IMG/VR virus record: IMGVR_UViG_3300027759_000109
Span: 1 to 57,002 of that record
Source: a virus
DNA length: 57,002 nucleotides
Direction: 5' to 3' (one strand)
Shown one piece after another: positions 3,784-36,861 of this stretch. Made by a program: the position numbers and the translations under genes. Under the pieces are notes generated by a model, which saw only the letters and a program-made list of their open reading frames with translations, did not search any database and was not told the DNA's origin. Position 1 is the stretch's first letter; the number at the start of each line of letters is the position of its first letter.

Positions 3784-3791
3784 TATATTTG
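3784..3791 (+). promoter_or_regulatory. -7 box of rightward early promoter (left unit)
   Basis: TATATTTG fits the Bacteroidota TAnnTTTG -7 consensus and lies 29 bases before the ATG of the 92-aa gene. At the -33 position there is only a T-run, not a clear TTTG. The middle unit has the same box and similar flanks at 35479-35486, although the genes downstream share little sequence, which supports a real promoter. Confidence 0.7.
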
Positions 3792-3820
3792 AGTATTGTT
3801 AAACAACAAAACAAATAGAA

Positions 3821-4099
3821 ATGGCAAACAACAAAACTTACGAGAACCTTCAAATGGGATTTGACAGGACTCAACTTTACAAAGAGTACACACAACCTCA
3901 AATCAATCGTTCAACCGCCTTACAGGCTACCATGAACTTTATTAGGGTTAATCAGTACCAATTATCACTTACGGAGACTATTGCGTTATCAGAGAATTTT
4001 GTTAAGTATATTGAAGATGGTAAAACAGACTGGATGAAAAAGACAGAACAATACCTTCAAAATAAATTACAAGATATTGATGGTGTATTAATCGATTAA
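3821..4099 (+). CDS. small rightward early protein, 92 aa (left unit)
   Basis: First gene of the short rightward transcript. Mostly helical, no recognised domain; the centre reads ALQATMNFIRVNQYQLSLTE and the C-terminus is charged. The positional counterpart at 35510-35743 is shorter and only loosely similar (an N-terminal lead, a hydrophobic helix, then a K-rich tail). The leader AACAAAACAAATAGAA before ATGGCA is shared with it. The start-codon stretch GAAATGGCAA (3818-3827) is exactly complementary to the loop of the small RNA encoded 740 bases downstream, so translation could be under antisense control. Confidence 0.65.
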   Translation: MANNKTYENLQMGFDRTQLYKEYTQPQINRSTALQATMNFIRVNQYQLSLTETIALSENFVKYIEDGKTDWMKKTEQYLQNKLQDIDGVLID

Positions 4100-4490: not shown

Positions 4491-4522
4491 TTTGTTTTTA
4501 TAAAAATATTTTGTTATATTTA
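4491..4522 (+). promoter_or_regulatory. promoter of the small RNA (left unit)
   Basis: TTTG at 4491-4494, a 20-base spacer and TATATTTA at 4515-4522 match a Bacteroidota-type promoter. The predicted start is near 4527-4529, exactly at the 5' arm of the downstream hairpin. The middle unit repeats the arrangement with the same spacing (36139-36142 and 36163-36170). Confidence 0.7.
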
Positions 4523-4527
4523 ATATT

Positions 4528-4640
4528 GGAAGGACGGATACAGTTTTCATTCTAAATTTGATATTGCCATTTCATGTAGTCCATCCGTTCTTCCTTTTTA
4601 TATATAGATAAACCCCTGATTTTTTAAGTCAGGGGTTTTT
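4528..4640 (+). ncRNA. predicted phage small RNA (left unit)
   Basis: An outer helix pairs 4528-4539 (GGAAGGACGGAT) with 4583-4594 (ATCCGTTCTTCC), and the terminator hairpin 4610-4638 follows. The 43-base apical region is strongly conserved with the middle unit copy (36176-36294), with the shared core GATATTGCCATTTCAT. The second stem position is G-C here and T-A there, a compensatory change, and one G-U appears in both. No open reading frame of meaningful length is present and no gene follows on this strand. The RNA therefore stands alone between its own promoter and terminator. The family is not one I recognise. Confidence 0.65.
4610..4638. terminator. bidirectional terminator at the left/middle unit junction
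   Basis: AAACCCCTGA (4610-4619) pairs with TCAGGGGTTT (4629-4638) and is followed by T-rich sequence on both strands. It would end the small RNA from the left and the middle unit's leftward late operon from the right. Confidence 0.85.
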
Positions 4641-4666
4641 AATTATATATGGTCAGAGGTGATTTT

Positions 4667-14921: not shown

Positions 14922-15929
14922 TTAACAAATTCCTGCTATTGATACATTTGGGAATCCTGTATAACTTAATGTTCCGTCTTTAACACATCCGGTAAGTGTT
15001 TGTGAGTATGCCATAATTGTTCCACCCACAGAACTATTTTCACAATCTAAACCACTCCAATAGACTTCGTATCCATTTGAAGTGTTATCAATAATCCATG
15101 ATGTTGATTCACAAGGTCCTGGTGTTGGAGTTGGAGTTGGTGTTGGAGTTGGTGGTAAACCACTACATGTTGTTCCACAATTGGTTATTGTAAACGATGC
15201 TACGTCCGCAAATGGGAAACCTGGTGTAATTGAACTACATATTGCACATTCTGTTATGGTATAAGTTCCTGTTGTGGATACAAATACATAATAATCATCA
15301 CCATTTGTTTGACTATCATATTTAATCCAACCAGTATCTGTTACGTTTAATGTTGCTCCACTTTGATATACCGTTGGTGTCGGAGTTGGTGTAGGTGGAC
15401 CTGGTGTCGGTGTTGGCGTAACTGGTGTTGGAGTCGGAGTTACTGGTGGTGTAATAGTACTTATTACAATATTTTGACATATGGGATAGACCGCTCTTTT
15501 TCCAATAAATCTAACTTCAAAATAATATGTTCCATTACTAAATTGGGATAAACCAAAGTCTGATGGTAATACAGTAATTCCCGCAATCGTTCCTGAAAAA
15601 GATGTTGAACCTGTTGATGAGCTACTTTGTGAATTTATCGTTCTCCATGGTTTAAAATATTCTTGACCTGCCGCCATCATATGAAGTGTGAATATAGATA
15701 CATTACCACTTTGTCTTAAGAATATTTCAGCATTATTTTTTGACCATGTATAACCTAAACTAAAGGTTAATGCTGAATAACTTATAGTTGTTGCGCTTAA
15801 ACTAACTACCGTTCCACTTACACTATTTTCATTAATATCATGAATAATCTCTGTATCATATTCAGTTAAATCGTAATTTGGATATACGAAATTTTGATTA
15901 TCAATTTGTTTTATATACTTTCTTCCCAT
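14922..15929 (-). CDS. tail protein with two PT-repeat linkers, 335 aa (middle unit)
   Basis: N-terminal 150 residues (NQNFVYPNYDLTEYDTEIIH, YFKPWRTINS, GTYYFEVRFIGKRAVYPICQ) are shared with the right unit protein at 47147-48145 and presumably anchor it to the tail. PT-rich linkers at residues 161-187 and 258-272 join two small cysteine-containing beta domains (ITECAICSS, TNCGTTCSG) and a variable C-terminus. It is probably a tail-tip or receptor-binding accessory. The promoter-like TATATTTAATA lies 4 bases before the ATG. Confidence 0.65.
   Translation of the reverse strand: MGRKYIKQIDNQNFVYPNYDLTEYDTEIIHDINENSVSGTVVSLSATTISYSALTFSLGYTWSKNNAEIFLRQSGNVSIFTLHMMAAGQEYFKPWRTINSQSSSSTGSTSFSGTIAGITVLPSDFGLSQFSNGTYYFEVRFIGKRAVYPICQNIVISTITPPVTPTPTPVTPTPTPGPPTPTPTPTVYQSGATLNVTDTGWIKYDSQTNGDDYYVFVSTTGTYTITECAICSSITPGFPFADVASFTITNCGTTCSGLPPTPTPTPTPTPGPCESTSWIIDNTSNGYEVYWSGLDCENSSVGGTIMAYSQTLTGCVKDGTLSYTGFPNVSIAGIC
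15371..15450 (-). repeat. PT-linker hexamer repeats
   Basis: Degenerate GGTGTWGGAGTW-type repeats on the plus strand encode threonine-proline runs on the minus strand. Such flexible linkers also act as short homologous patches for domain exchange. Comparable blocks lie at 15120-15154, 18549-18658, 47341-47375, 47588-47680, 49080-49218, 50278-50315 and 51098-51185. Confidence 0.85.
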
Positions 15930-23476: not shown

Positions 23477-26359
23477 TTATGATGGGTTTATAATTAAGTA
23501 TGCTACCGTATCTGCGTCTCCATTATGGTCTGATGTTATACTAAATGTTCCACCACCTTTTGATGTTACACTTACAGTTCCATTTCCACTATTAGTATTT
23601 GTTTGTTTGGTTAAGAATATTAAACTTGTTGCTGAAACCAAACTATTTGATACTGTTGCCGTACCAGGGTTTCCACCATTAAGAACAAATGTTCCCATTG
23701 TTTTATCTGAACCTGATGCGAATAACACATTACCTGTTACAGCAAATGAACCTGATATAGTTAAAGGTGCACTACCACTCTTAAACATAATTGGTTGACT
23801 AGTACTTGGTAACTGTACATTGAAATAATCTTGTGCTTCATCAATACCTTGTAAAGAACCTAATATTAAGTTATTAGAACCTGTTGTGAAACTTGATGCC
23901 TTTGCGAGAATTACGTTATTAGAACCTGACCTAATACTGATATTACCAACACCTAACATCAAGTTGTTTGAACCTGTTCTAAAGTTGTTAAAGTTACCAC
24001 CCATTGTATAGTTGTCAGTTGATCCTGACGTGATACCAAATTGTGTATCTGTCTGGTCCATATTAGATTGACCTAAGAAGAAACCTATTTTTCTTGCTGG
24101 GTTAAAGAATAACTGTGGTTGGTTTGTACCATCCGCAATTCTAATCGAACCTGATTCATTATACATTCTCATTGAACCTGAGTGAATAACAAATGTTCTA
24201 TCTGATGTATTTACGTTTGAACTACTTACTATTGATGTTCCTATTGTTGTTAATGAACCAGATATTATTGTGTTTGAACCACTATCAATTGATAAACCTG
24301 TTCTTCTTGTTGATGTTGCGGTACCCGTTCCTACTGCGAAAACTATATCTTGTGATAATGATAATGAACCTGTATCATTAAATCTACCAAAGAATGCTGA
24401 ACCACCTGCGGTTGTTGATGTATTTGATGCGGACACTGATAAGTTACTACCAAATATTACGGTTGAAGTTAAGTTTGAATTTGATGATGAAACAAATGAT
24501 GATGATATAATATTATTATTACCACCAATTAAGTTATTGTTAAATGATCTTGCTACGTTTGATGATTGTGAACCTGATACATATATGTTATGACCTGTTC
24601 CAACTGCTCCACCCAAAAATGTATTATTATTAAGAGTAACGTTGTTATTAGTAATATTTGAACTACTTACGTGGTTATTAACTGTAATAGGTGAGTTATT
24701 AAAGTTACTTGAATAGTTGATTGAACTACTGATATGATTTAATGTAACACTAGTACCATTAATTAAATTTGTTGATATTGATGGTCTTGTGTTTGTTACA
24801 AAGTTTTGTGTTGATGTAATACTACCACCATTCAATAAGTTTGCTGCCATAGCTTGAATAGAACCACTATTACTATTAATTGTAATGTTTCCTGCGTTTA
24901 ATGTATTATTTTGAAAAATTGGATGACCACCCGATAAAGACGATGTGGTAAAGTTCATTAATATATTTGCGTTAGCACCTACATAGTTGTTTGTTGTTTT
25001 AGGGAATAATAATGAACCTGTGTTTAAATAAATTCCACCACCATTAGATGTTAATGTATTATCTGAACCTGAAATATAACCTTGTTGGTCTACACCACCA
25101 CCATTACCTGTGGCTCTTAATTGTGGTAATGATACTATGTTATTTGAACCTGTGATTCTTAATGAACCTGTATAGTTTGCTTGTGTTGCACCAGGTCCAC
25201 TTGCTGCTGGATTTTCACTCCAACCTTTAATTATATTAACTTGTCCCGCTTGTGAACTTGTTAAATATAATGATGGTTGAACTGTTGTGTTAAGTGATAA
25301 ATTTAATAAATTACCATCAGCGTATAAAGAACCTGTAACACCAACGTTATTAGTTGTGTTCCATACTGAACCTGTTAGTGCAAATAAACTATCTCCACTT
25401 GTACCTGATGTACCTGCGGTTCCACTTGTTCCTGAAGTTCCTGAACTACCACTATCTCCTGAAGTTCCACTTGTTCCCGATGAACCAGCAACACCTGATG
25501 TACCACTACTGCCACTACTTCCTGATGTACCTGAACTTCCACTTGTACCTGATGTACCGCTCGTACCTGAACTACCACTACTTCCTGAATCACCACTTGT
25601 TCCTGAAGTACCAGACGTTCCATTTGTACCTCCACTAAACGCAACACCATTAACAAGATATTGTCCTGTTATATCTATTGAACCTGTTACGCTCATTGAA
25701 CCTGAAACATTTATATCATTCTCTGCTACAATATCAATACGTTTAACTGAACCGTAATTATCAACCTTAACATATGTTACATCATTACCCAAGAATATTT
25801 GACCACCACTTGCGGTGATGTGTGTATCAGTTGGTGATGTATTATATACTTCCAAATATCTTGCGTCAGATTGATTTGGTTGTAAGAATAAACTTCCTGT
25901 ACCTTGTATATTAGTTACACCTAATGAACCTGTTACATTTAATTTACCAGTCCATCCATTATGACCAACATTCACATTACCCTCACCACCATCAGCGTTA
26001 ATATATAATGTTCCACCATTTAATGATGAGAAGTACAACGCACCTGATACATTGTCGGTTGATACAAATGAATTACTTGGGAAAGATAAATTCCCTTCAA
26101 TTATTTGGCTACCAATAAAAGTGTTTGAACCTGTGGTTGCGAAAGAACCAGTATCAACCGCACTTCCTGTAATTGGTGAACCATTAACAGTGAATGAACC
26201 TGAGATGTTTACCTCAGTTAAACTCATCTGTAAAGGTGAATTATCACCGTCACCTGTTTGTACGGTTTGTAGTGTGTTAGTTAAACCATTAGTACTATCG
26301 GTCATTTTTAAAAGACCTTGAAATGAACTACTAACGTAAAGATTATTTAATTGACCCAT
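23477..26359 (-). CDS. collagen-like tail fibre, 960 aa (middle unit)
   Basis: The N-terminus (MGQLNNLYVSSSFQGLLKMT) is the tail-attachment end. Residues about 239-322 are an unbroken Gly-X-Y repeat of GTS, GSS and GDS triplets, a collagen-like trimerising rod without proline. Many short SGSLxVTGS strands suggest a beta-helical shaft (residues 320-850). The last 75 residues (VLNGGNPGTATVSNSLVSAT onward) are almost identical to the right unit gene and belong to a C-terminal domain common in fibres of such phages. It is the probable receptor-recognition fibre. Confidence 0.75.
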   Translation of the reverse strand: MGQLNNLYVSSSFQGLLKMTDSTNGLTNTLQTVQTGDGDNSPLQMSLTEVNISGSFTVNGSPITGSAVDTGSFATTGSNTFIGSQIIEGNLSFPSNSFVSTDNVSGALYFSSLNGGTLYINADGGEGNVNVGHNGWTGKLNVTGSLGVTNIQGTGSLFLQPNQSDARYLEVYNTSPTDTHITASGGQIFLGNDVTYVKVDNYGSVKRIDIVAENDINVSGSMSVTGSIDITGQYLVNGVAFSGGTNGTSGTSGTSGDSGSSGSSGTSGTSGTSGSSGTSGSSGSSGTSGVAGSSGTSGTSGDSGSSGTSGTSGTAGTSGTSGDSLFALTGSVWNTTNNVGVTGSLYADGNLLNLSLNTTVQPSLYLTSSQAGQVNIIKGWSENPAASGPGATQANYTGSLRITGSNNIVSLPQLRATGNGGGVDQQGYISGSDNTLTSNGGGIYLNTGSLLFPKTTNNYVGANANILMNFTTSSLSGGHPIFQNNTLNAGNITINSNSGSIQAMAANLLNGGSITSTQNFVTNTRPSISTNLINGTSVTLNHISSSINYSSNFNNSPITVNNHVSSSNITNNNVTLNNNTFLGGAVGTGHNIYVSGSQSSNVARSFNNNLIGGNNNIISSSFVSSSNSNLTSTVIFGSNLSVSASNTSTTAGGSAFFGRFNDTGSLSLSQDIVFAVGTGTATSTRRTGLSIDSGSNTIISGSLTTIGTSIVSSSNVNTSDRTFVIHSGSMRMYNESGSIRIADGTNQPQLFFNPARKIGFFLGQSNMDQTDTQFGITSGSTDNYTMGGNFNNFRTGSNNLMLGVGNISIRSGSNNVILAKASSFTTGSNNLILGSLQGIDEAQDYFNVQLPSTSQPIMFKSGSAPLTISGSFAVTGNVLFASGSDKTMGTFVLNGGNPGTATVSNSLVSATSLIFLTKQTNTNSGNGTVSVTSKGGGTFSITSDHNGDADTVAYLIINPS
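25396..25640 (-). repeat. Gly-Thr-Ser collagen-like coding repeat
   Basis: Nine-base-type repeats encode about 27 consecutive GTS/GSS/GDS triplets in the fibre. The opposite strand is also open here but only as a by-product of the repeat. Such blocks expand and contract by slippage, so fibre length may vary. Confidence 0.85.
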
Positions 26360-28272: not shown

Positions 28273-30913
<2,641 letters not shown>

Positions 30914-32068: not shown

Positions 32069-32592
32069 TCTTTTATCTTTTTACCGTGAATGACCCCCTG
32101 ATAATCTATATCAATATGGTCAAACTTATAATAGTTTATTTCATAACCGTTGTTTTCTAATATATGTTCTATTGATAATAGACAACTCAAGTTGTGGTAC
32201 TCACACGCTATCTCATCTATACCATCAAAATGTTTATATTCAATTGCGTTCATCATTATTTCAGATCCTTCCACATCAATCTTCATTACCTGTGGTTTGT
32301 AATAGTCCATATACATAATAAACTTCTCGTGCCTATCTACCATATCCATATGTGGAATGAAGTGTTGAACATTATAGTTTTGTTTAAACCATTCGTATGA
32401 TTGTGGGTTTCCATCCACACCAATTACCTTTGATGCTTTACGTTCCTGTAAAAAATATACTGGTGTTGGTGTAAACTCTGAGTTGATTCCACATCCTAAA
32501 TCTAATACAACCTTATCTCTGATGTTTAAAAATCCCCAATGAATGTCTGGTGATTCTGATGTGATGATTCCTTTTGGTTCCCTAATCTTCAT
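32065..32592 (-). CDS. FkbM-like SAM methyltransferase (middle unit)
   Basis: Full-length version of the gene cut at the left window edge. SAM motif I VVLDLGCG (about 28-35), acidic VIGVDGNPQ (about 56-64), MKIDVEGSE (about 103-111) and a C-terminal strand pattern fit a class I methyltransferase of the FkbM type. It is small at 175 residues, near the minimum fold. Possible roles: O-methylating a glycan or a virion component, or modifying a host molecule. Its coupled place between the sigma-like gene and the packaging genes is kept in both units, as far as visible. Confidence 0.8.
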   Translation of the reverse strand: MKIREPKGIITSESPDIHWGFLNIRDKVVLDLGCGINSEFTPTPVYFLQERKASKVIGVDGNPQSYEWFKQNYNVQHFIPHMDMVDRHEKFIMYMDYYKPQVMKIDVEGSEIMMNAIEYKHFDGIDEIACEYHNLSCLLSIEHILENNGYEINYYKFDHIDIDYQGVIHGKKIKE

Positions 32593-33103
32593 TTTCTAAT
32601 CTTTTTAATATTTTTGTTTTAACTTCTTTTCTTGCTTCTTTGATATATCTTGAAATAGAAGGTAGTGGTATGGTTGTCTTCTTTGATACTTTCTTTAATG
32701 ACCCAAGCGTTAAATACATTTCAAACAAACTCTTATGAAACCAATTCAACTCACTAAACTCTGCTTCTAATATATCATAAATATTTTGTACTTCAAATGA
32801 TTCTTGGTCTGATTCCATCTCAGCAATACCATTTAAGTCTACATACAATGTATGTTCCCTCCTTACCCTATAATAAAATGGTGATGTTTTTGAATAGAAA
32901 TTTGTCCTGAGTATTGCGGTAATATAATACCTGATTGAATTGTCATCGTATGACTTTAAAATGATTTCGTCTTTGTCATACAATTGTAGAATTACTTCGT
33001 GTAATAAATCTTTGGATAGGTCGTGATGTTTGGTTATTCTCTCTGAAATGTTTGAGAGTAAGTAATAGTTCTTCGTTATGTAAGCCTCTATTATTTTATT
33101 CAT
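32582..33103 (-). CDS. sigma-factor-like DNA-binding protein (middle unit)
   Basis: 173 residues, homologous to 340-867: region-2-like DLSKDLLHEVILQLYDKDEI and SKTSPFYYRVRRE, and region-4-like GSLKKVSKKTTIPLPSISRY. It is clearly diverged from the left copy while the next gene downstream is nearly identical, so the boundary lies at the ATG of the methyltransferase. It may redirect host polymerase to late promoters. Confidence 0.6.
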   Translation of the reverse strand: MNKIIEAYITKNYYLLSNISERITKHHDLSKDLLHEVILQLYDKDEIILKSYDDNSIRYYITAILRTNFYSKTSPFYYRVRREHTLYVDLNGIAEMESDQESFEVQNIYDILEAEFSELNWFHKSLFEMYLTLGSLKKVSKKTTIPLPSISRYIKEARKEVKTKILKRLENED

Positions 33104-33365
33104 TTTTAGTTAATAATGTTTTCACATCTGAAAGAACTTGTACGACCTCGTAATTCTCATCTCCCAAATTAGTTATAATAGAACTTTCAATAATTCCATC
33201 CAATATTTCTAACCTATCTATTTCAGGTTCAACACTTCTATCAATAATATGTAACATTGAATCTATTATAGTATTACATAATGATACCCTTTGTCTATGA
33301 GTAAACTTAAAATAGTCTTTTGGTATATTTAATTCACCTATGTCAACCGTTTCCTTATGCTCCAT
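33096..33365 (-). CDS. conserved hypothetical protein, 89 aa (middle unit)
   Basis: Counterpart of 857-1120, with the same plan: VDIGELNIPKDYFKF, PEIDRLEILDGIIESSIITN and VVQVLSDVK. Overlaps both neighbours. No family known; conserved coupling to the sigma-like gene is the only functional hint. Confidence 0.7.
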   Translation of the reverse strand: MEHKETVDIGELNIPKDYFKFTHRQRVSLCNTIIDSMLHIIDRSVEPEIDRLEILDGIIESSIITNLGDENYEVVQVLSDVKTLLTKNE

Positions 33366-34101
33366 TCTTATTTATAAGTTTTTGTATGCTGGCTGTTGAT
33401 ACACCATACTTTATAGCAATTCTTTTATAAGACCAATCCTTACTTGAATTATATAATTCTATTATCTCTTTTCTATGTTCAGGATTCCAATTTATTTCTG
33501 ATGTATAGATTAATTTCTTTTTAACCTTTGGAAATACCAATTTACCATTAATATATTCTTTAACACCAGGTTTTAAGAAATGACCACACTCATCACTATA
33601 AGTATAACCGAGTGCCTTCATTACCATATAGGTTTGTTCCTTTTGATATTCATCAGCCCATACCCCAACTTTATTATATACTCTTTCTGAACCACCACTT
33701 GTTTCTAATTCCCCGTATCTACTCTCCCTTCTTCTATCTAATTCCCTTTTGTTACAACATTTTCTACAATCAAGATATGTGGTTTTTTTACTTTTACCGT
33801 GATAATAATAATCATCCATCCTATGTTTATACTGCTGACAGGTTCTACATAACTTGTAGTCAGGATTTGTTGAGAATAGATTCTGTTCCACAGGTTGAGG
33901 TTGCAATACCTCTATTTCTAATTCTAAGACCACTGGTTCAATTATCTCTTTCATTGTGATACTTTCCTTGTATTTTGTTTTTTGATTCTTAAAACAAGAC
34001 TTACAGATTCTTCTTGTACGCCATTTCTTTTGAGTGGAATGGTAATAACTATAATACTCATTTTCCTGTTTATCAATTGAACATTTACTACACTTAATCA
34101 T
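33355..34101 (-). CDS. double zinc-finger protein with helix-turn-helix (middle unit)
   Basis: 248 residues, nearly the same as 1101-1862. Cysteine modules CSKC ... CKSC and CRTC ... CRKC, then a long shared segment (GGSERVYNKVGVWADEYQKE) and the C-terminal HTH WSYKRIAIKYGVSTASIQKL. One cysteine-adjacent region differs (QQYKHRMDDYYYHGKSKKTT). It is preceded by the conserved hairpin at 34121-34154. Confidence 0.7.
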   Translation of the reverse strand: MIKCSKCSIDKQENEYYSYYHSTQKKWRTRRICKSCFKNQKTKYKESITMKEIIEPVVLELEIEVLQPQPVEQNLFSTNPDYKLCRTCQQYKHRMDDYYYHGKSKKTTYLDCRKCCNKRELDRRRESRYGELETSGGSERVYNKVGVWADEYQKEQTYMVMKALGYTYSDECGHFLKPGVKEYINGKLVFPKVKKKLIYTSEINWNPEHRKEIIELYNSSKDWSYKRIAIKYGVSTASIQKLINKNGA

Positions 34102-34120
34102 AAATACTTGCGTTTAAACG

Positions 34121-34154
34121 AAAAACCCCCACCTAACAAAATATTAGGTAGGGG
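34121..34154 (-). terminator. terminator or attenuator hairpin in leader (middle unit)
   Basis: Arms at 34126-34136 and 34144-34154, with T-rich sequence following on the minus strand. Essentially identical to 1882-1915. About 85 bases around it are shared by both units, and then the upstream gene content changes completely. Confidence 0.75.
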
Positions 34155-34210
34155 AAGAAAATTCCTAATGTTTGGGAACATATTAGAATAATAAATATTA
34201 CACAAACATC

Positions 34211-34637: not shown

Positions 34638-35123
34638 TTACATTAGTTTTTTATACGCGTGAATGTGTGCGATAGTTAATTCATTTACTTCCATATAGTT
34701 CTTTGTATTTTGAATAAACTTTTCCGCAGTGTTAGTTGAGATTAAATCCAATTTCCATTTACGATTATCATTTTCAAAAAACAGGTTCAAATATTCTTCC
34801 AAATATTCTTTACCAAAATTCATTAATACATTTACCTGTGGAACTTTGATGTCGTCCAGTATACTAGAACTTGTATCTGTTGAGGTATTATCAAATAGTT
34901 TTTTATCAACTAGCGAGTTACCATCCCTAAATTCCCTATCTCTTTTATACATATCAATTATTACTCGTTCGTATGTACTGCGAGAATCTTCAGGTATTTC
35001 TAATACTTCCAATATGTATTTTTCCTTTCGTTCTTGTGATAGATAAGAAAATTTGATAGGGCGTATTTCACCTGCTCTGTATTTCCATACGCCATCTGTT
35101 GTTAATTCTGGTCTGTTTGCCAT
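34638..35123 (-). CDS. first leftward early protein, 161 aa (middle unit)
   Basis: Charged, helical protein without a clear family. Its end (TIAHIHAYKKLM) and the preceding helix (AEKFIQNTKNYMEVNE) resemble the end of the left unit's replication-type protein, so both may share a C-terminal partner-binding part. The start context GAAATGGCAA (minus strand, 35126-35117) is exactly complementary to the small-RNA loop. It lies 29 bases from the nearest GCGA-N6-TCGC dyad, so autoregulation is possible. Confidence 0.55.
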   Translation of the reverse strand: MANRPELTTDGVWKYRAGEIRPIKFSYLSQERKEKYILEVLEIPEDSRSTYERVIIDMYKRDREFRDGNSLVDKKLFDNTSTDTSSSILDDIKVPQVNVLMNFGKEYLEEYLNLFFENDNRKWKLDLISTNTAEKFIQNTKNYMEVNELTIAHIHAYKKLM

Positions 35124-35486: not shown

Positions 35487-35509
35487 ATTAAACAATAAAA
35501 CAAACAGAA

Positions 35510-35743
35510 ATGGCAGAACTACAATTTTACAGCACAGATATCAAAATCTTGCAACAATCTCAAAGTAAATTAGTACTTGAGTATTTGAATCTTATGGGTA
35601 TTAAACCTACCGTAGAAGAACTTTGGAGAGTAACTGAAGTATTTGTTCAATGTTGTCTTCATAACCAAGACGATGACCTTAAAAAGAGAATTAAAGCGTT
35701 GGATGAGTGGGTTGTAAAAAAACAATCTAAAAATAAAGTATAA
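35510..35743 (+). CDS. small rightward early protein, 77 aa (middle unit)
   Basis: Positional counterpart of 3821-4099. Starts MAELQFYSTDIKILQQSQ, has a hydrophobic helix (LVLEYLNLMGIKPTVEELWR) and a basic tail. Little sequence is shared with the left version. Its start-codon stretch (35507-35516) pairs with the small-RNA loop over 10 positions, one being G-U. Confidence 0.65.
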   Translation: MAELQFYSTDIKILQQSQSKLVLEYLNLMGIKPTVEELWRVTEVFVQCCLHNQDDDLKKRIKALDEWVVKKQSKNKV

Positions 35744-36138: not shown

Positions 36139-36170
36139 TTTGTTTTTTTAAAAATATTTTCATATATTTA
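36139..36170 (+). promoter_or_regulatory. promoter of the small RNA (middle unit)
   Basis: TTTG at 36139-36142, 20-base spacer, TATATTTA at 36163-36170; identical spacing to the left unit promoter. Predicted start at the 5' arm of the hairpin at 36176. Confidence 0.7.
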
Positions 36171-36175
36171 TAATT

Positions 36176-36294
36176 GTAAGGGCGGATACATTTTTATTCT
36201 AAATCTGATATTGCCATTTCATATAGTACATCCGTCCTTACTTTACTTATATAGATAGTGATTTTACTTAAAACCCTGACTTTGTCGGGGTTTT
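36176..36294 (+). ncRNA. predicted phage small RNA (middle unit)
   Basis: Second copy of the RNA at 4528-4640. GTAAGGGCGGAT (36176-36187) pairs with ATCCGTCCTTAC (36230-36241), one G-U. The loop keeps TTGCCATTTC (36211-36220), complementary to the translation starts of the 77-aa gene (10 positions, one G-U) and the leftward 161-aa gene (10 positions). The terminator follows at 36270-36296. Confidence 0.65.
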
Positions 36295-36296
36295 TT
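36270..36296 (+). terminator. terminator of the small RNA (middle unit)
   Basis: AAAACCCTGAC (36270-36280) pairs with GTCGGGGTTTT (36284-36294), one G-U, three-base loop, then T-run. It takes the place of the hairpin at 4610-4638 in the other unit, with different sequence but the same position. Confidence 0.85.
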
Positions 36297-36384: not shown

Positions 36385-36861
36385 ATGAAATGGAATAAAG
36401 ATAAGGTTACAGAAATTGCTAAACAATATTCTAATCAAAAAGAATTTAGAAAGGCTAACATTGGGGCGTTTGAATATTCTAAACGTACTGGTTTATTAGA
36501 TGTTTTATTCCCCGATAGAAAGAAGAATGAAACTAATTGGACAGTTGATAAGGTTAAGGATATTGCGTCCAAATATCGTAGACGTAAAGACTTTTGTCAG
36601 ATTGAAAAGTCGGCTGCTGGTATGGCATACCGATTTGGTATTATGAATGAACTTTACCCACACAAAGAGTTTAAGACTCATACTCCAACCGAAGAGGAAA
36701 TGAAAGGACGCACAAAGAGATGTTGTCACTGTAAAGAAGAATTACCTTTAAAGTATTTCCACAAGAATAGAGTATTTTTTGATGGTCTTGCACACAACTG
36801 TAAGAACTGTACCAATAGTTTTAACAGAGAAAGAATGAGATTAGTTAAAAATAAAAAATAA
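36385..36861 (+). CDS. inserted repeat/zinc-ribbon DNA-binding protein, 158 aa
   Basis: Two copies of a helical repeat (WNKDKVTEIAKQYSNQKEF and WTVDKVKDIASKYRRRKDF) of a type often attached to homing endonucleases, followed by a zinc module (CCHCKEELPLKYFH ... CKNC). No nuclease core is seen. With its own promoter and terminator it looks like a self-contained insertion (a moron or the remnant of a mobile gene). The zinc part resembles that of the early zinc-finger genes. Absent from the left/middle junction. Confidence 0.7.
   Translation: MKWNKDKVTEIAKQYSNQKEFRKANIGAFEYSKRTGLLDVLFPDRKKNETNWTVDKVKDIASKYRRRKDFCQIEKSAAGMAYRFGIMNELYPHKEFKTHTPTEEEMKGRTKRCCHCKEELPLKYFHKNRVFFDGLAHNCKNCTNSFNRERMRLVKNKK

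Follow-up and report, generated by a model that had tools for sequence, protein, structure and literature searches.

A 57,002-nt stretch of viral DNA (IMG/VR record IMGVR_UViG_3300027759_000109, positions 1 to 57,002; hereafter the window) carries two diverged copies of a putative small RNA gene, whose transcription is predicted from sequence and whose family has no description in Rfam or in the literature searched. The product is probably a phage trans-acting antisense RNA, which would pair through its loop with the start codons of an adjoining operon and repress translation of those genes. The left copy reads as the complete unit that a preliminary description had claimed, with a −33/−7 promoter of 20-base spacer, a 12-bp hairpin, a 43-nt loop and a terminator all found between 4491 and 4640, and a transcription start predicted at about 4527:

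4491–4494, plus strand: promoter −33 box TTTG, from sequence
4515–4522, plus strand: promoter −7 box TATATTTA, following TTTG after a 20-nt spacer, from sequence
4528–4539, plus strand: 5′ stem arm GGAAGGACGGAT, from folds and covariation with the 3′ arm
4540–4582, plus strand: 43-nt loop, from sequence and fold
4564–4573, plus strand: seed TTGCCATTTC of the loop, including the conserved GCCAU core
4583–4594, plus strand: 3′ stem arm ATCCGTTCTTCC, 12 bp with the 5′ arm, from fold and covariation
4610–4640, plus strand: intrinsic terminator AAACCCCTGA...TCAGGGGTTTTT, from sequence and fold

The left element folds at −35.7 kcal/mol, compared with −19.2 ± 3.2 for its shuffles (z −5.2, 0/200), and its terminator is also usable by the convergent minus-strand genes. 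That the unit lacks a reading frame, as first stated, agrees with the six frames of 4527–4642, all of which are short or broken with none usable for coding, and with the variation of loop length between relatives. A diverged copy occupies 36139–36296 in the right unit, where the promoter, loop and stem announced for the other junction are indeed present, the loop being 42 nt long:

36139–36142, plus strand: −33 box TTTG
36163–36170, plus strand: −7 box TATATTTA
36176–36187, plus strand: 5′ stem arm GTAAGGGCGGAT
36188–36229, plus strand: 42-nt loop, with its seed at 36211–36220
36230–36241, plus strand: 3′ stem arm ATCCGTCCTTAC
36271–36296, plus strand: intrinsic terminator, from sequence

The window is made up of two related, diverged phage units, arranged head to tail with a repeat of about 32.2 kb, and the longest contigs of its relatives are mostly 32–35 kb. 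The units have in common an exact stretch of 110 bases, at 214/32456, so this layout is equally likely to reflect a chimeric assembly of two co-occurring phages or a true dimer. Portal, terminase and prohead-protease-like genes identify the window as that of a tailed phage. The nearest isolated phages found are the Nonlabens phages P12024S/L (Inhavirus), with a related portal (28% identical over 85% of the query); P12024S was checked for the hairpin and has none. Portal relatives number 472; a search of bacterial genomes returned none, and thus no prophage or host link. Other features of the window include:

1–1956 and 32243–34195: matching parts of the two units
28273–29607: large terminase subunit, Terminase_3/Terminase_6N
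23477–26359, minus strand: fibre-like protein with collagen-like repeats and a C-terminal K1-lyase domain (Pfam)
14922–15929: one of several other virion proteins with long TPTPTP repeats

Several dozen relatives of the hairpin RNA have been identified in IMG/VR phages. Ten other IMG/VR contigs have exactly the same loop, with stems that differ in a compensated manner. Among eight sequences, three stem pairs are altered on both sides, none is broken and 100% of cells are paired; the compensatory change proposed at the second stem position is real, being GC in four and UA in four. The stem covariation score is 0.390, against 0.191 ± 0.029 for shuffled alignments (0/500). A covariance model search, of the kind suggested in the preliminary description, also reached remoter phages, with weaker matches at the identical genomic place, in most cases on the strand opposite to the portal gene.

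Relatives were also recovered by routes that differ in what they select. Scanning loci picked by the portal gene only, for TATATTTR followed by a hairpin, yielded 28 distinct hairpins, compared with 3/511 control placements; these were not picked by loop, and 23 of them contain [TC]GCCA[TC], with a GCCAT or GCCAA variant in three more (26/28). Sites in phage loci picked by the loop motif, and not by the stem, have a hairpin in 30 of 32 cases, and their own stem arms score 13.9 versus 10.0 after 3′ halves are swapped between phages. Bacterial genomes with the promoter-plus-TTGCCAT pattern gave many pattern matches, with a hairpin in 0/73 control sites, and among 46 non-redundant loci picked by the family B gene only (see below), 36 have a GCCA hairpin downstream. 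The region is AT-rich and of low complexity, which would suit a chance hairpin or composition artefact, but the two sets of control sites refute this reading, as does the better fit of each stem arm to its own partner, and we give it practically no weight.

The stem sequence is wholly unlike between subgroups (GGAACCCG/CGGGTTCC in L078 versus GGGGGCAGTC/GACTGCCCC in L095), and it includes G–U pairs that are compatible with the plus strand only. This turnover with pairing kept, together with the strand-specific G–U pairs, indicates an RNA under selection for its structure; the family is well supported and occurs widely within one phage group. The hairpin begins 38 nt past the stop of the upstream gene and one terminator closes both, which would suit a processed 3′ UTR element of that gene or, alternatively, a DNA element such as a replication, packaging or recombination site. 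Such readings are very improbable, given a promoter at fixed spacing before the hairpin in relatives, G–U pairs suited to one strand, and a stem whose sequence drifts with its pairing intact, unlike that of a protein-bound DNA palindrome.

A search of Rfam (Rfam 15) gave no match at the gathering threshold, the best sub-threshold matches being noise; tRNA-like and Rfam identities were rejected. When phage and plasmid records were searched with the element as DNA, only AT-rich chance matches came back. A phi29-type packaging RNA was likewise rejected, since the phage encodes the Terminase_3/Terminase_6N large subunit. Terminators in the homologues were found by inspection. The earlier proposal of an undescribed small RNA gene is hence supported by the covarying stem, the promoter, the terminators, the lack of an Rfam match and the lack of a frame in homologues.

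In all 41 relatives the −7 box stands at a constant distance before the hairpin, and it agrees with the Bacteroidota sigma-A consensus TAnnTTTG, which is located at −12 to −5 (PMC9723704). TTTG lies 18–20 nt 5′ of TATATTTR in 29 of the 41 elements (19–20 nt in 28, 18 nt in one). Most elements without TTTG at that spacing are directly behind a C-rich, T-rich stretch resembling a terminator for the gene before it, and elements so placed may not need a −33 box.

The near-invariant part of the loop is GCCAU, the complement of AUGGC, and folding predicts the seed to be mostly accessible, with a mean unpaired probability of 0.74 and values above 0.5 in 39 of 41 elements. The RNA gene is found just downstream of a small operon on the same strand, the first genes of which mostly start AUG-GC. 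AUGGC starts occur in 18/50 upstream operon genes versus 26/320 others (p 1e-6), and 15 of 16 loci have at least one upstream AUGGC start. The proposed targets in the window are as follows:

3784–3791, plus strand: −7 box TATATTTG of the proposed target transcript, from sequence, with a predicted 5′ leader of about 25 nt
3818–3827, plus strand: proposed target site GAAATGGCAA of the left unit, over the start codon, a 10-nt perfect seed complement
3821–4099, plus strand: proposed target gene of the left unit, encoding a small helical protein of 92 aa, family B
35507–35515, plus strand: proposed target site GAAATGGCA of the right unit, 9 nt, over the start of gene 35510
35510–35743, plus strand: proposed target gene of the right unit, encoding a predicted three-helix protein of 77 aa, family B

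Across relatives, the upstream same-strand operon begins with family B, whose small proteins have three predicted helices, with family A, or with both. The family B product of gene 35510 was modelled by AlphaFold2 with a pLDDT of 84; it has no match in PHROG or Pfam and no confident one in the PDB, and no PDB counterpart was found for the family B structure. Family A corresponds to PHROG 9069, which forms the operon head in many of these phages (e.g. L062:10195–10647 and relatives), and its predicted winged helix (best Foldseek E 0.007, to bacterial regulators) suggests that it is likely a DNA-binding regulator. No isolated phage was found to encode family A or B. Protein alignments over all members of either family were too diverse to serve as queries, and subsets took their place.

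Among the start regions of the left unit, the site at 3818–3827 pairs best, and matches between loop and start in relatives extend to 12–13 nt (ACAAAATGGCAC in L028, TAACAATATGGC in L146, ATTACAAATGGCA in L130). There are also examples of matched change on the two sides: target ATGGCAAT is accompanied by loop ATTGCCAT, and in L139 the target ATGGCTA faces a loop with TAGCCAT in place of TTGCCAT. In many target genes the AUG follows a −7 box by some 25–35 nt, which implies short leaders.

Exchanging loops between phages provides a measure of this pairing. With 16 non-redundant loop groups, upstream starts score −13.06 with their own loop and −11.10 with swapped loops (sd 0.46; z −4.28, 0/20000), in permutations that only partly remove shared ancestry. 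Controls on the same groups gave z −0.19 for the full set of opposite-strand starts and −1.4 to +1.3 for internal positions of operon genes; one random subsample of the opposite-strand starts reached z −2.5, with two others, and the full set, being without signal. Extended to 33 loop groups, which take in the 16 on which the target idea was formed, the test gave z −4.5 for own-operon pairing and 0.16 for the opposite-strand control. The 16 loops gathered last, through the target gene and with several contigs incomplete, gave z −1.3 (p 0.10) when taken alone. Seven of these 16 later loci have no upstream AUGGC start in view, and four of the seven combine a family B gene starting ATGTC with a GCCAU loop.

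When 30 gene families were screened separately, with no target chosen beforehand, family B ranked first (z −3.5, p 0.001) and family A second (z −3.2, p 0.0007). In a long late-gene family, 93% of starts are AUGGC and yet the score was z +1.9, so the signal does not arise from the AUGGC core by itself. The best-pairing start in the contig belongs to family B in 28 and to family A in six of 55 contigs (34/55 together).

Taken together, these data make the start-codon mechanism probable but unproven. Transcription from the element's own promoter would begin at the base of the 12-bp GC-rich stem and end at the intrinsic terminator, producing an RNA of about 114 nt. The closing stem would shield the 5′ end and hold open a loop of about 40–55 nt that displays the GCCAU-based anti-start-codon seed. 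This loop would nucleate on AUGGC and extend into the leader and codons 3–4, forming some 9–13 bp in trans with the first gene or genes of the adjoining upstream operon, namely family B and, where present, family A. Pairing would then block ribosome loading on the short leaders, lowering A and B protein levels once the RNA accumulates. Whether the elements constitute, for Bacteroidota phages, a natural class of looped antisense RNAs is a more tentative proposal, and one to which we give somewhat less than even odds: the stem would drift freely while the loop tracks the start of whichever regulator gene heads the operon, giving a chaperone-free switch that ends operon expression during infection.

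Some operons start ATGTC or ATGGA and are nevertheless accompanied by a GCCAU loop; in L095 and L097, ATGGAATTT is the sole visible operon start. The right-unit site at 35507–35515 ranks third among the start regions of its unit, behind those of 34638–35123 (minus strand) and 36385–36861 (plus strand). Together, these observations point to more targets, or to a second role for GCCAU. The latter would fit a structured phage RNA in which GCCAU is a protein-binding site or pairs with RNA of the host, and in which its match to operon starts is secondary. This is unlikely, though the retention of GCCAU beside ATGTC and ATGGA starts speaks for it, as does a second loop motif, GUUAUACA, that is conserved in a subset without matching the target leaders; against it, the loop sequence flanking the core follows the start regions of its own operon and not other regions. 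The second motif occurs just 5′ of the 3′ stem arm in one subgroup (L037, L059, L061, L067, L078, L099, L130, L201 and L207), and was rejected as a further antisense site because it is not complementary to the target leaders.

Pairing with the operon starts could also have an effect other than repression, such as activation, stabilisation, anchoring of the mRNA, or titration with the operon transcript as sponge. Such outcomes are compatible with the support for pairing but are rather improbable: with leaders of about 25 nt the AUG itself would be covered, an arrangement that usually leads to repression, and the Bacteroides thetaiotaomicron RNA GibS represses genes with which it pairs over the start codon (PMC7366714).

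GibS, of about 145 nt, has its own promoter and terminator and pairs over the start codons of BT_0771 and BT_3893 (PMC7366714), features that the phage RNA would share, its pairing being predicted. The two differ in that GibS is bacterial with a seed at its unstructured 5′ end, whereas the phage seed lies in a loop closed by a covarying stem, and no sequence relation between them was found (no Rfam match). P22 sar and lambda OOP are phage antisense RNAs that pair with phage regulator mRNA and lower its expression (PMC12197685), as is proposed here. These are cis-antisense RNAs, encoded on the opposite strand with long perfect complementarity, whereas the present RNA gene shares the strand of its proposed target, lies downstream of it and would pair over 9–13 nt. 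A cis-antisense assignment was rejected, the RNA and operon being on one strand and hundreds of bases apart.

A further parallel, in layout, is synthetic. Paired-termini antisense RNAs hold a sequence antisense to a translation start between stabilising GC-rich inverted repeats (PMC2698124, PMC3694883), and similarly enclose the antisense sequence between paired ends; they are engineered, with 38-bp termini and long inserts, whereas the phage RNA is natural, with a 12-bp stem and a short seed. Evolution seems to use the layout of the engineered molecules. Few small RNAs have been characterised in the Bacteroidota, and Bacteroides has no obvious Hfq or ProQ homologue (PMC7366714). The family added here has no Rfam entry, is common among uncultured phages of Bacteroidota type and comes with a specific, testable proposed target; a compact loop that is closed by a stem and recognises AUG with its flanking bases would be a self-contained design, and a natural parallel to the paired-termini RNAs.

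Gene 34638–35123 (minus strand) also starts GAAATGGCAA and shows the best pairing of all right-unit starts, and the RNA may have targets beyond the operon, this gene being an example. Gene 36385–36861 (plus strand) is a possible second target: the right loop is complementary over 11 nt to its start, ATATGAAATGG. Only the right unit has this gene, which separates the RNA from the convergent genes; in its 158-aa product the C-terminal part is HNH/endonuclease VII-like (PHROG matches). The G004/L046 hairpin type, of like layout and place and present in L046 (10543, minus strand), L047 and L049, has the loop ACCTACCCC and is without GCCAU; the two operon genes directly before it start ATGGA (ATGGAAGC). 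One relative with both operon and RNA, L406 (contig IMGVR_UViG_2651869531_000031), has a record number resembling that of a single-genome record, and might identify a host.
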